Below the pieces are notes generated by a model that did not search any database, was not told the origin of the DNA, and was given only the letters and a program-made list of their open reading frames with translations. The translations under genes and the position numbers were made by a program. Positions 40,647 to 43,519 of a DNA stretch of 64,000 bases are shown here, piece by piece. How positions within the stretch are numbered: position 1 is the stretch's first letter; each line of letters begins with the position of its first letter. Source of the stretch: Methanobrevibacter sp. YE315 (lineage in GTDB: Archaea; Methanobacteriota; Methanobacteria; Methanobacteriales; Methanobacteriaceae); contig NZ_CP010834.1 of NCBI RefSeq assembly GCF_001548675.1, positions 310,001-374,000 on the forward strand, read 5' to 3'.

Positions 40647-40922
40647 ATGTGTATTGCAGCACCCGCTCAAATAGTTGAAATAAATAGGGAAGAAAATTGG
40701 TTATATGCTGACTTTGGTGGAGCAAGACAACAAGCTAAATTAGATCTTTTACCTGATGTAGAAGTTGGCGATTATGTACTTATCCATGCTGGTTATGCAA
40801 TCGAAAAATTATCTGAAGAAGCGGCTAAAGAATCTTTAGAAGCTTGGGAAGAACTTTTAGAAGTTCTTGAAGAAGAAGATAGAGAAATGGAAAAAGCAAG
40901 AATGGAAAATTTAAATCAATAA
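40647..40922 (+). CDS. hypC: Hydrogenase maturation chaperone HypC
   Basis: The 91-residue protein begins MCIAAPAQIVEI; Cys2 is essential for carrying the Fe(CN)2CO group in [NiFe] hydrogenase maturation with HypD. The beta-barrel core is DYVLIHAGYAIEKL. The acidic, Glu-rich helix at the C terminus is common in archaeal HypC. A strong GGAGATGG ribosome site is present. No other hyp gene or hydrogenase is adjacent. Its last bases overlap the convergent ACT regulator gene by 7 nt. Confidence 0.95.
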   Translation: MCIAAPAQIVEINREENWLYADFGGARQQAKLDLLPDVEVGDYVLIHAGYAIEKLSEEAAKESLEAWEELLEVLEEEDREMEKARMENLNQ

Positions 40923-41419
40923 ATTGACACTCTTGTTACTCCTTTTATTTTTAAAAATTCATTAATTAAATCACCACTTACAGGTTCTTCTGTAATGATG
41001 GTTAATATCGGAGACTCTTGGAGCTCTGTATCTTCGGCATAAGCTTGTCTTATTCCGATTCCTTTTTTTGTAATCAAATTTGTTGTTGAAGCAAGGATTC
41101 CTTCATTTTCTGATCCCACTTCTATTTCAATAACTCCCAATTCCAGATTTTTAGCTATGTTTTTTAAAAGTGTTCCTGCAGGGATAATGTTGCTAAAAAG
41201 ATTATATAACTCTTTATCTTCTTTAATTATATCGATGGTTGATTTTATGGCTCTTCTATCAACGTCTGCTGCTGTAGCTAAGGATTTATCGCTGATTTTT
41301 AAATTTCCACAATAAATTTTTCCATCCTCATTCAGGGATAATCCGAGTTCAATCATTTTTTCTGCAACTCTCATTCTTGCAGGGTATTTTCTAAATTTTT
41401 CATTAATTTTTTCCCACAT
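40916..41419 (-). CDS. ACT-domain regulator of amino acid metabolism (COG2150 type)
   Basis: About 167 residues. The N-terminal half is helical and DNA-binding-like (MRVAEKMIELGLSLNEDGKIYCGNLKISDKSLATAADVDRR region; helix-turn-helix-like around 45-62). The C-terminal half is an ACT domain (GVIEIEVGSENEGILASTTNLITKKGIGIRQ). This matches the archaeal proteins annotated as regulators of amino acid metabolism. The ligand and targets are unknown. GGTGA lies just in front of the ATG at 41419, while an in-frame ATG at 41431 overlaps that site, so 41419 is preferred. Confidence 0.75.
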   Translation of the reverse strand: MWEKINEKFRKYPARMRVAEKMIELGLSLNEDGKIYCGNLKISDKSLATAADVDRRAIKSTIDIIKEDKELYNLFSNIIPAGTLLKNIAKNLELGVIEIEVGSENEGILASTTNLITKKGIGIRQAYAEDTELQESPILTIITEEPVSGDLINEFLKIKGVTRVSIY

Positions 41420-41565
41420 TATTGTCACCATTCAAACTTTTTGTACATTCAGGTTATCTTTTGTTGAATGTAATATATATTTGTTGGGATTGTAATTTGA
41501 AAATAAGTTAAAAAAAGATTAAATTGTCAAGAAACATGTAAAAATCTTTAAAAAATAGTTTTAAG

Positions 41566-41640
41566 TAGGCTAGATGGGATTCGAACCCATGACCTCCCGG
41601 TTATCAGCCGAGCGCGCTAACCAAGCTGTGCCACTAGCCT
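41566..41640 (-). tRNA. tRNA-Ile (GAT anticodon)
   Basis: Read on the minus strand, it has a 7-bp acceptor stem AGGCTAG/CTAGCCT, discriminator A and D-loop with TTGGTTAG. The anticodon stem is CTCGG/CCGGG with loop CTGATAA (anticodon GAT), and the T arm is ATGGG/CCCAT around TTCGAAT. CCA is not encoded and no intron is seen. GAT reads ATC and ATT codons for isoleucine. Confidence 0.95.
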
Positions 41641-41652
41641 ATGATATTTAAG

Positions 41653-41668
41653 TGACAGTTAACTGTCA
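41653..41668 (-). promoter_or_regulatory. Perfect 16-bp palindrome in the tRNA-Ile leader
   Basis: TGACAGTTAACTGTCA is fully self-complementary. It begins 13 bp upstream of the mature tRNA 5' end and about 22 bp downstream of the TATA box, so it falls at the expected transcription start or in the pre-tRNA leader. It could be an operator or a leader hairpin. Confidence 0.6.
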
Positions 41669-41690
41669 ACACTTACACTTATGTTAATTA

Positions 41691-41710
41691 CTATATATAA
41701 CTGTTTCGGT
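41691..41710 (-). promoter_or_regulatory. BRE/TATA promoter of tRNA-Ile
   Basis: On the minus strand this reads CCGAAACAG followed by TTATATATAG, about 50 bp upstream of the mature tRNA. It closely matches the cdc48 promoter. Confidence 0.7.
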
Positions 41711-41744: not shown

Positions 41745-42029
41745 TTATCTATTAATCATTTCGTTAATGGAATCTGCCATTGCATGACCTTCAACGATGA
41801 TTTTAGCATTTTCAACGCCATCAACTTGTTCTGCTCTAATTTTTGCATCAGCAGCGATACGTGTGATACTCATACAACCAGGATTAGTTGGTTTGAGGGT
41901 AATTTCAGCTTGGTCTCCATCAACAACAATATTTTGCACAATGCCCATTTCCACGATACTAATTCCCATGTGAGGGTCATTAATTACAGAAATAGCATCT
42001 TTAATATTATTCACTAAATCTTCAGACAT
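41745..42029 (-). CDS. MIP18/DUF59 family Fe-S cluster assembly factor
   Basis: The 94-residue protein is a single DUF59 (SufT/MIP18) domain. It has the INDPHMGISIVEMGIV motif, TLKPTNPGCMSI with the conserved Cys, and a long C-terminal helix. Such proteins help insert Fe-S clusters into target enzymes. The ribosome site GGAGACAAATC supports the start. It lies 88 bp downstream of arcS on the same strand and just upstream of the tRNA-Ile promoter, and may share the archaeosine-TFE transcript. Confidence 0.85.
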   Translation of the reverse strand: MSEDLVNNIKDAISVINDPHMGISIVEMGIVQNIVVDGDQAEITLKPTNPGCMSITRIAADAKIRAEQVDGVENAKIIVEGHAMADSINEMINR

Positions 42030-42102: not shown

Positions 42103-42124
42103 AAAGTAATCATTTAATTACTTT
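42103..42124 (-). terminator. Hairpin over the arcS stop codon
   Basis: AAAGTAAT (42103-42110) and ATTACTTT (42117-42124) form a perfect 8-bp stem with a 6-nt loop. The minus-strand stop TAA (42120-42118) is in the stem. There is no T run after it. Confidence 0.5.
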
Positions 42125-43026
42125 ACTCGATGTTTAATTTTTACAGCAATGCCGTTGTTGCATTCTTCCATTTCATAACCGGTCATTATTGCCTTTCCAA
42201 CTCCAACGACCTCGTTATCCTTAACAACAACCACCTCATCATTTGGAATGATATTATGCGCTGCTTTTTTAATTCCAGGCGAGAATACAGTATTTGTTGT
42301 CAAATCAAAATCAATCTCTACAGTATTGATGTTCAATTCGTTAAGTATTTCTCCTCCTGCCAAATTTAATCTGTATAATCCATAATCTTTATTTAATAAT
42401 GCTAATTGAGTTCCATTTGATAAAATTCTCTTATGGTACATTCCTTTTGTTTTGACATTATCTGGAATGAACTCATCCCCATTTTCACCAAATTGATATT
42501 TTGCAATTGATTTCAATTCATGTAAAGTCTTTTCTTTTCTATTATTTCTTTGATGATTTTTAAGTTCCATTCTTAAATTGTAAAGTGAATCTGGGGAAGT
42601 CGGACGACCGTCCTTGCAGGTATTGATAAAGTCATCAACATAGGCCTCACAGGATTCCAAATATCCTCCTGAAAGATTTGCAACAATTGTTTTTCCTTTG
42701 CAATATTTTGCAATTAGCTTTCCGGTTTCTTCAATTTCATCTTGAGACCATGAACCGGTTGTACTTACATCATATGATTGAATAGGGAATGTATTTTCGA
42801 GTTCTCTTGGACAAATTCCAAAAGGTGAAGTCACAATAAGCTCCTGATATGATCTTGTGATTTTCCTAAATTTCTGATGTGATTTTGAATTGGAATAAGG
42901 TTTTTTCATACTGCATGGCAATAGAACAACTGTATCTCCAAGAGGTTCCATCATTTCCATTCTTTGTCTCCACCTTACAGCTTCAGGGCGGTATAATGAT
43001 TCTTCACTTGAGCATATTACTTTCAT
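42118..43026 (-). CDS. arcS: Archaeosine synthase, short catalytic form
   Basis: ArcS converts preQ0-modified tRNA (position 15) to the archaeosine precursor or product. The 302-residue protein has the signature motif PCSMKKPYSNSKSH (residues 37-50), a fit to PC-x3-KPY-x2-S-x2-H. It then has the DUF5591-type region (ELIVTSPFGICPRELE) and a C-terminal PUA domain (DEVVVVKDNEVVGVGKAIMTGYEM). The TGT-like N-terminal domain of long ArcS is absent, so this is a short-form enzyme. A TTG-started extension to 43038 is unlikely. GAGGAAT precedes the ATG at 43026. The gene follows the HD gene by one base. Confidence 0.85.
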   Translation of the reverse strand: MKVICSSEESLYRPEAVRWRQRMEMMEPLGDTVVLLPCSMKKPYSNSKSHQKFRKITRSYQELIVTSPFGICPRELENTFPIQSYDVSTTGSWSQDEIEETGKLIAKYCKGKTIVANLSGGYLESCEAYVDDFINTCKDGRPTSPDSLYNLRMELKNHQRNNRKEKTLHELKSIAKYQFGENGDEFIPDNVKTKGMYHKRILSNGTQLALLNKDYGLYRLNLAGGEILNELNINTVEIDFDLTTNTVFSPGIKKAAHNIIPNDEVVVVKDNEVVGVGKAIMTGYEMEECNNGIAVKIKHRVK

Positions 43027-43027
43027 A

Positions 43028-43519
43028 TTATTCCTCAAAGGCTTTAATTAATTCGTCATCGAGCTTTATTAGTCTTTCAATATTTTCATCACTAATTTCA
43101 GCATTCCTTTTCCATTTCTTTATTACAAAATCAATATCCACTTCATCGCTGCCGCTTATTAGATTGTCTGCATGAGCTACGATTTTTTCTTCAAGAGTTT
43201 CCGGTACATATGATTTTTCAGGAAGTCCCAGTTTTAAGGCTTCACTTTCGGTTATCCCTGCACCGATGTGTCTTTCGATAATGTTTAAAACATCTTGGGA
43301 ATATCCATATTTTTTAGCTATTTTAACTCCTTCAATGGCATGAGTGATTCCATGAGTTTTAGATCTCCCGATATCATGTAAAAGAGCGCCTTTTCTAATT
43401 AAGTCTTCATTAACATCATCAAAATTAGCAGCTATTTTCATAGCCTTTTTACAAACGGCTTTGCAATGGGCGATGACATTTTCAGGAGTGTTCTCCTTTT
43501 TAAGTAATTCAATTTCCAT
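43028..43519 (-). CDS. HD-domain protein (TIGR00295 type)
   Basis: The 163-residue HDIG-type phosphohydrolase-like protein has an early metal His (IAHCKAVCKKA), the core LLHDIGR with His48-Asp49, a later THAIEGVKIAKKYG and ERHIG histidines, and the final HADNL Asp. All metal ligands seem intact. The substrate is unknown. The family is widespread in methanogens. An upstream start inside the TFE gene is unlikely, and the ATG at 43519 lies 10 nt after the TFE stop. It forms an operon with TFE and arcS. Confidence 0.8.
   Translation of the reverse strand: MEIELLKKENTPENVIAHCKAVCKKAMKIAANFDDVNEDLIRKGALLHDIGRSKTHGITHAIEGVKIAKKYGYSQDVLNIIERHIGAGITESEALKLGLPEKSYVPETLEEKIVAHADNLISGSDEVDIDFVIKKWKRNAEISDENIERLIKLDDELIKAFEE

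Follow-up and report, generated by a model that had tools for sequence, protein, structure and literature searches.

The window, a stretch of 64,000 nucleotides of Methanobrevibacter sp. YE315, contains the perfect 16-bp palindrome TGACAGTTAACTGTCA at 41653-41668, which is read directly 12 nt upstream of a tRNA-Ile(GAU) gene on the minus strand; its sequence and position, as first given in a sequence-only reading of this DNA, were exact on re-reading. The tRNA gene is flanked upstream by an iron-sulphur assembly gene (41745-42029, FeS_assembly_P) and downstream by a 171-aa gene (40916-41431), for which no Pfam match was found at E 0.001. The tRNA-Ile gene lies just upstream of the 171-aa gene in 41 of the 42 retrieved contigs that hold that gene (L133 is the exception; L125 and L134 begin at tRNA-Ile). 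The two genes thus keep their order, but this does not speak for regulation. A minus-strand gene near the tRNA, at window positions 42118-43038, carries DUF5591, TGT_C2 and PUA domains and is presumably archaeosine-synthase-like. A known Rfam element was considered and rejected, as at gathering scores nothing in the window apart from the tRNA matched an Rfam family. The elements of the locus are as follows:

41703-41709, minus strand: BRE-like element CCGAAAC, read directly
41691-41700, minus strand: predicted TATA box TTATATATAG, each column 76-100% conserved in 37 aligned rows
41673-41690, minus strand: AT-rich spacer from TATA to start, unusually conserved (mean identity 0.91 at -19 to -1)
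41641-41672, minus strand: predicted transcribed leader of pre-tRNA-Ile, 32 nt, GTGTTGACAGTTAACTGTCACTTAAATATCAT, placed by the TATA-to-start distance
41653-41668, minus strand: the palindrome, read as a putative leader hairpin with arm TGACAG (41668-41663), loop TTAA (41662-41659) and arm CTGTCA (41658-41653)
41566-41640, minus strand: tRNA-Ile, anticodon GAU (Rfam, 62.6 bits; 41565-41640 by ARAGORN)
41550-41555, minus strand: T6 run 10 nt past the tRNA, read directly, with a possible terminator-like role

In the 37 aligned rows the CCGAAA columns of the BRE-like element are each 81-100% conserved and its seventh base is variable. The transcription start was predicted from the TATA box alone, by counting 28-33 nt from its first T, which gives approximately 41672-41667 and would therefore place the palindrome inside the transcribed leader, near the beginning of its predicted 32 nt. 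This agrees with the earlier proposal that the palindrome lies at the expected start or in a short pre-tRNA leader, the start itself being a prediction.

The bare palindrome is not unusual for this DNA, as the number of perfect palindromes of at least 16 bp in the window is at chance (two seen, 1.8 expected with sd 1.4 from 30 dinucleotide shuffles). As a conserved feature it does exceed chance. Of 67 genomes of the genus, 35 contain it with at most one mismatch, 34 of them at tRNA-Ile and 28 with an exact copy there, with one site per genome apart from G063, which has two, both at tRNA-Ile on two contigs; the single site of G060 lies elsewhere. The sequence-only reading had suggested looking for its absence in sister species, and the comparison shows the palindrome kept in those 34 genomes and lacking in 12 with short leaders. 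The full tally of the 67, which is our own reading of pattern matches and alignments, adds the same motif with more than one base changed and still foldable in five (G019, G027, G030, G054, G059), a different predicted hairpin in six (G011, G033, G021, G032, G065 and, weakly, G029), a left arm with the hairpin lost or weak in four (G004, G008, G010, G061), short leaders in the 12 (G009, G013, G014, G020, G022, G031, G034, G037, G041, G042, G046, G060), a lost promoter in three whose assemblies are 83-84% complete (G023, G047, G049), and three unclassified (G012, G040, G062). In G023, G049 and G047 (L074, L075, L087) the tRNA follows closely behind the end of the upstream gene where the promoter is missing, and in G023 and G049 the right half of the hairpin remains before the promoterless tRNA-Ile.

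A perfect dyad that spans a predicted start and is kept in 34 of 67 genomes could be an operator at which a dimeric regulator represses or activates tRNA-Ile, and this was the regulatory branch of the earlier proposal. That branch did not hold up. In its own genome the palindrome occurs once, at tRNA-Ile, the only other site within two mismatches lying elsewhere, and no second promoter bearing it was found at up to one mismatch in the 67 genus genomes or at up to two in the YE315 genome. Nor is there a constant half-site or spacing: half-sites and letters differ among relatives and the predicted loops of their Ile leaders range from 3 to 13 nt, which is ill-suited to a dimeric DNA-binding protein. 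Hairpins of different tRNA genes within one genome likewise bear different arms, and no candidate regulator is apparent in the one gene examined for this, the downstream 171-aa gene, which has no Pfam match. We therefore regard an operator as unlikely, and indeed as the least probable of the explanations considered here.

Where the palindrome changes, pairing often persists. In G011 and G033 the tRNA-Ile leader reads GTGTTGC-loop-GCGACAC, in G021 TTACTG-loop-CAGTAA, in G032 AATTGAAAC-loop-GTTTCAATT and in G065 GAAATCA-loop-TGATTTC, while G027 has TTGACA-loop-TGTCAA around a 7-nt loop and is no longer a palindrome as DNA. Other genera have further versions, namely ATAGTTG-loop-CAACTAT in L154 (p.017), CTTGTA..TGTAA-loop-TTACA..TACAAG in L141 (p.020) and ATATCTGAAAAT-loop-ATTTTTAGATAT in L145 (p.000), all by mononucleotide shuffles. 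Pairing is thus retained with changed letters in G011/G033, G021, G032, G065 and other genera, as is expected of a structured pre-tRNA leader. These observations are consistent with our preferred interpretation, to which we give somewhat better than even confidence, that the palindrome encodes a 5'-terminal hairpin of the tRNA-Ile precursor RNA. The perfect DNA palindrome would then be a by-product, because the loop TTAA happens to be self-complementary.

Covariation within the Ile alignment is modest. Among 30 distinct leaders the named stem is paired in 78.1% of cells compared with a shuffled mean of 75.8 (0 of 500 shuffles), and changes on both sides occur in five cells compared with 1.2 (0 of 500 as high), four of the five belonging to the sister pair G011 and G033 and the fifth to G008, which lacks the hairpin. 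The covariation score is 0.160 against 0.126 (1 of 500), and two other measures are unremarkable, namely three pairs that have changed on both sides (1.2 in shuffles, 43 of 500) and nine additional pair types (8.2 in shuffles, 162 of 500). Partners slid along the alignment fall below the named stem on every covariation measure, the nearest being +2 with four both-side cells.

Conservation is not confined to the stem. Calculated from 37 of 54 rows selected for holding TGTTGACAG, mean column identity is 0.62 ahead of the BRE and 0.87 across the BRE and TATA. It rises to 0.91 over the spacer and to 1.00 over the left arm, the latter partly because of that selection, and then falls to 0.81 over the right arm and 0.65 past it. 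The hairpin is gone in G004, G008 and G061 and weak in G010, yet the left arm GTGTTGACA persists in all four, which suggests that the hairpin is not indispensable and that something else constrains the left arm; a separate constraint at the level of the DNA may act on it and on the spacer. Alternatively, the whole stretch from TATA to left arm, ATAAGTATAAGTGTTGACA, could be a DNA initiator for the transcription machinery, with the right arm partly a product of drift or history. This would account for the spacer and left arm being the most conserved parts, for the left arm outlasting the right in G004, G008 and G061, and for the occurrence of TGTTG at approximately equal distance from the TATA box in short-leader genes. 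However, it leaves unexplained why the right arm is complementary and better conserved (0.81) than its flanks (0.62-0.65), and why other species and other tRNA genes have other complementary arms. An initiator acting in this way is the most credible of the alternatives, and we still consider it rather unlikely.

The RNA-hairpin interpretation can be compared with the predicted folding of the leaders. The YE315 Ile leader (41641-41672) folds at -6.6 kcal/mol with z -1.69, 15 of 200 dinucleotide shuffles folding as well, and its stem has p 0.083; in a 120-nt transcript the hairpin and the tRNA are predicted to fold apart from each other. Many individual leaders fall short of significance. By mononucleotide shuffles, p is 0.05 or lower in 32 of 43 own-genus Ile leaders of at least 25 nt, most of which share one motif and hence are not independent, and in 6 of 33 from other genera, where the rows include tandem copies and poor TATA calls. 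Tandem tRNA-Ile copies were seen in L140 (G070, three copies) and L139 (G094, two copies), with a promoter-like stretch before the first copy. A dense array of tRNA genes was also observed at G089:C1:360659-363464, G089 having 58 tRNA matches compared with 31-38 in the four other genomes searched.

Enrichment of start-anchored stems was evaluated from the length of the longest stem that begins within the initial 14 nt, relative to dinucleotide shuffles, in a set defined by a fixed rule (predicted leader of 25-60 nt) that decided what was counted. The TATA finder assigned a 7-nt leader to the YE315 tRNA-Gln, for which a longer leader picked by eye is able to fold, and over-long leaders to some others. 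Across the tRNA genes of three genomes (YE315 and two relatives), stems of at least 7 bp occur in 12 of 19 leaders compared with 6.0 in shuffles, and of at least 8 bp in 8 of 19 compared with 2.8, neither count being reached in 200 shuffles. Taken genome by genome the enrichment at 7 bp is weaker than when pooled (3 of 6 leaders in YE315, 25/200 shuffles; 4 of 5 in the second, 7/200; 5 of 8 in the third, 22/200). Ile leaders of other genera have at least 6 bp in 15 of 18 (10.8 in shuffles, 3/200) and at least 7 bp in 10 of 18 (5.9, 11/200), and those own-genus Ile leaders that lack the common motif have at least 8 bp in 5 of 16 (1.3, 1/200) and at least 7 bp in 6 of 16 (3.4, 17/200). The mRNA promoters of the window that served as a control, only eight in number, were at shuffle level.

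Hairpins with changing letters are also visible in the leaders of initiator Met, Gln, Ser and Pro tRNAs across many genomes. Search patterns for these leaders, whose counts are pattern matches rather than hairpins and include some leaders that have none, matched for initiator Met in 57 of 67 genus genomes (76 of 119 genomes and 8 of 17 genera in the family), for Gln in 11 of 67, for Ser in 26 of 67 (a pattern that may also catch the other Ser tRNA, which shares the 5' end) and for Pro in 40 of 67. Taken singly, 5 of 47 initiator Met leaders reach p 0.05 or lower, as do all eight of the chosen Gln leaders. No real stem was found in eight initiator Met leaders of the short type (G009, G014, G020, G031, G034, G042, G046, G060).

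The Pro leaders allow the two strands to be distinguished. In YE315 the tRNA-Pro(UGG) leader, just above position 1891882 of contig C1 on the minus strand, contains the arms GTATGT, ACATAC and GTATGT, the second of which can pair with the first or with the third, which ends at the tRNA; this switch-like arrangement is also seen in related genomes, and the motif of the first arm occurs in 38 of the 40 matched genomes. At the fixed arm positions in those 38 (G060 and G031 have no such arms and were left out), there are 25 G-U and 2 A-C cells, counted as cells rather than independent events, and this large excess of G-U favours pairing of the transcript strand. The Pro leaders are the sole part of the strand test on which we rely. 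In the Ile core A-C (8) outnumbers G-U (3), a confounded comparison that gives no support for transcript-strand pairing. The Ser arms, which were chosen by eye as paired, show six G-U and no A-C over the 18 rows other than G016. A pooled G-U to A-C count of 43 to 10 was set aside because of the Ser row G016, the eye-picked Ser arms and the confounded Ile part.

A leader hairpin may instead act as an attenuator, which, with a T run behind it, would in certain circumstances make RNA polymerase stop short of the tRNA. The initiator Met leaders of the genus, aligned in 27 chosen rows, have a T run directly 3' of the hairpin in many cases, and such an element would fit them, as it would the three Pro arms with their two mutually exclusive hairpins and the T5-T7 that ends some Ile leaders (G064, G017, G001, G024). 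In the window, however, no T run follows the hairpin of the Ile leader (CTTAAATATCAT), and the same is true of most of the relatives listed. Termination at T runs in archaea is not known to require a hairpin, which counts further against attenuation, and we consider it very unlikely at this locus. A broader proposal is that leader hairpins form a family-wide layer of tRNA gene control in the Methanobacteriaceae, by which single tRNAs are regulated without a protein operator. The three-armed Pro pairings and the initiator Met leaders with hairpin and T run would then determine for each gene whether its transcript is completed and cleaved by RNase P. We put this forward as speculation with little probability of being correct.

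For the tRNA-Ile hairpin we favour a simpler role, which is suggested by leader lengths. With transcription starting at approximately 41672-41667, the first bases of the transcript would pair with a segment located 10 to 20 nt downstream. Such a hairpin would sequester the excess length of a long leader, preventing this excess from pairing with the tRNA or the trailer, and would leave approximately 9-10 unpaired nt before the RNase P site, near the whole length of short leaders. Own-genus Ile leaders of 25-60 nt with a good TATA box fold at -2 kcal/mol or lower in 39 of 41 cases, with a median unpaired 3' tail of 9 nt, and the short Ile leaders of the genus are 9-13 nt in total (median 12, n = 4). 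For all tRNAs of the three genomes, 16 of 19 leaders are folded, with a median tail of 10 nt, and short leaders have a median of 13.5 nt (n = 14). The fit is poorer in other genera, with 11 of 15 folded, a median tail of 10 nt and short leaders of median 18 nt (n = 5). The nearness of tail lengths to short-leader lengths suggests that the hairpin may bring a long leader to the working length of a short one. Of the earlier alternative, regulation or a processing hairpin, the hairpin has thus gained support from stems with other letters in relatives and in other tRNA leaders, and the processing role is what we infer from it.

If this is right, one group of methanogens of the gut and rumen tends to fold the start of its long tRNA precursors, and promoter architecture, through the distance from start to tRNA, is tied to RNA processing. 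These leaders would provide natural structured substrates for studies of archaeal RNase P. They would also be a caution that a palindrome at a start site is not necessarily an operator.

Structured tRNA leaders are known as such. No report of leader hairpins in Methanobrevibacter or Methanosphaera, nor of a start-anchored hairpin in several tRNA genes across a methanogen family, was found in the open-licence papers searched. Among methanogens, the operators of dimeric regulators such as NrpR and TrpY are palindromic DNA near the start site; the YE315 palindrome differs from these in having no regulon and no constant half-site, and in that its letters turn over.

Archaeal tRNA genes provide a second comparison. 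Those of Nanoarchaeum equitans have a TATA-like box A approximately 26 nt upstream of the start (PMC3491384) and give leaderless tRNAs, whereas the tRNA-Ile leader of YE315 is approximately 32 nt long and foldable. It contrasts in the same way with the leaders of Methanopyrus kandleri, which are described as mostly short, the two printed being 12-13 nt (PMC3695527).

A third comparison is with pre-tRNA leaders from studies of bacterial RNase P, where a stem-loop likewise lies within the tRNA 5' leader. In the bacterial work, leader stem-loops and pairing between leader and 3' end are named as obstacles to RNase P (PMC9433436), which suggests to us that a hairpin placed as far 5' as possible would hold the excess leader aside. 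The arrangement differs from those bacterial structures, which hinder cleavage: the methanogen hairpins occupy the 5' end of the leader and are followed by unpaired nucleotides up to the cleavage site, 2-25 of them in the own-genus and three-genome sets, with medians of 9-10, and, unlike those bacterial cases, they recur over many species and several tRNA genes.
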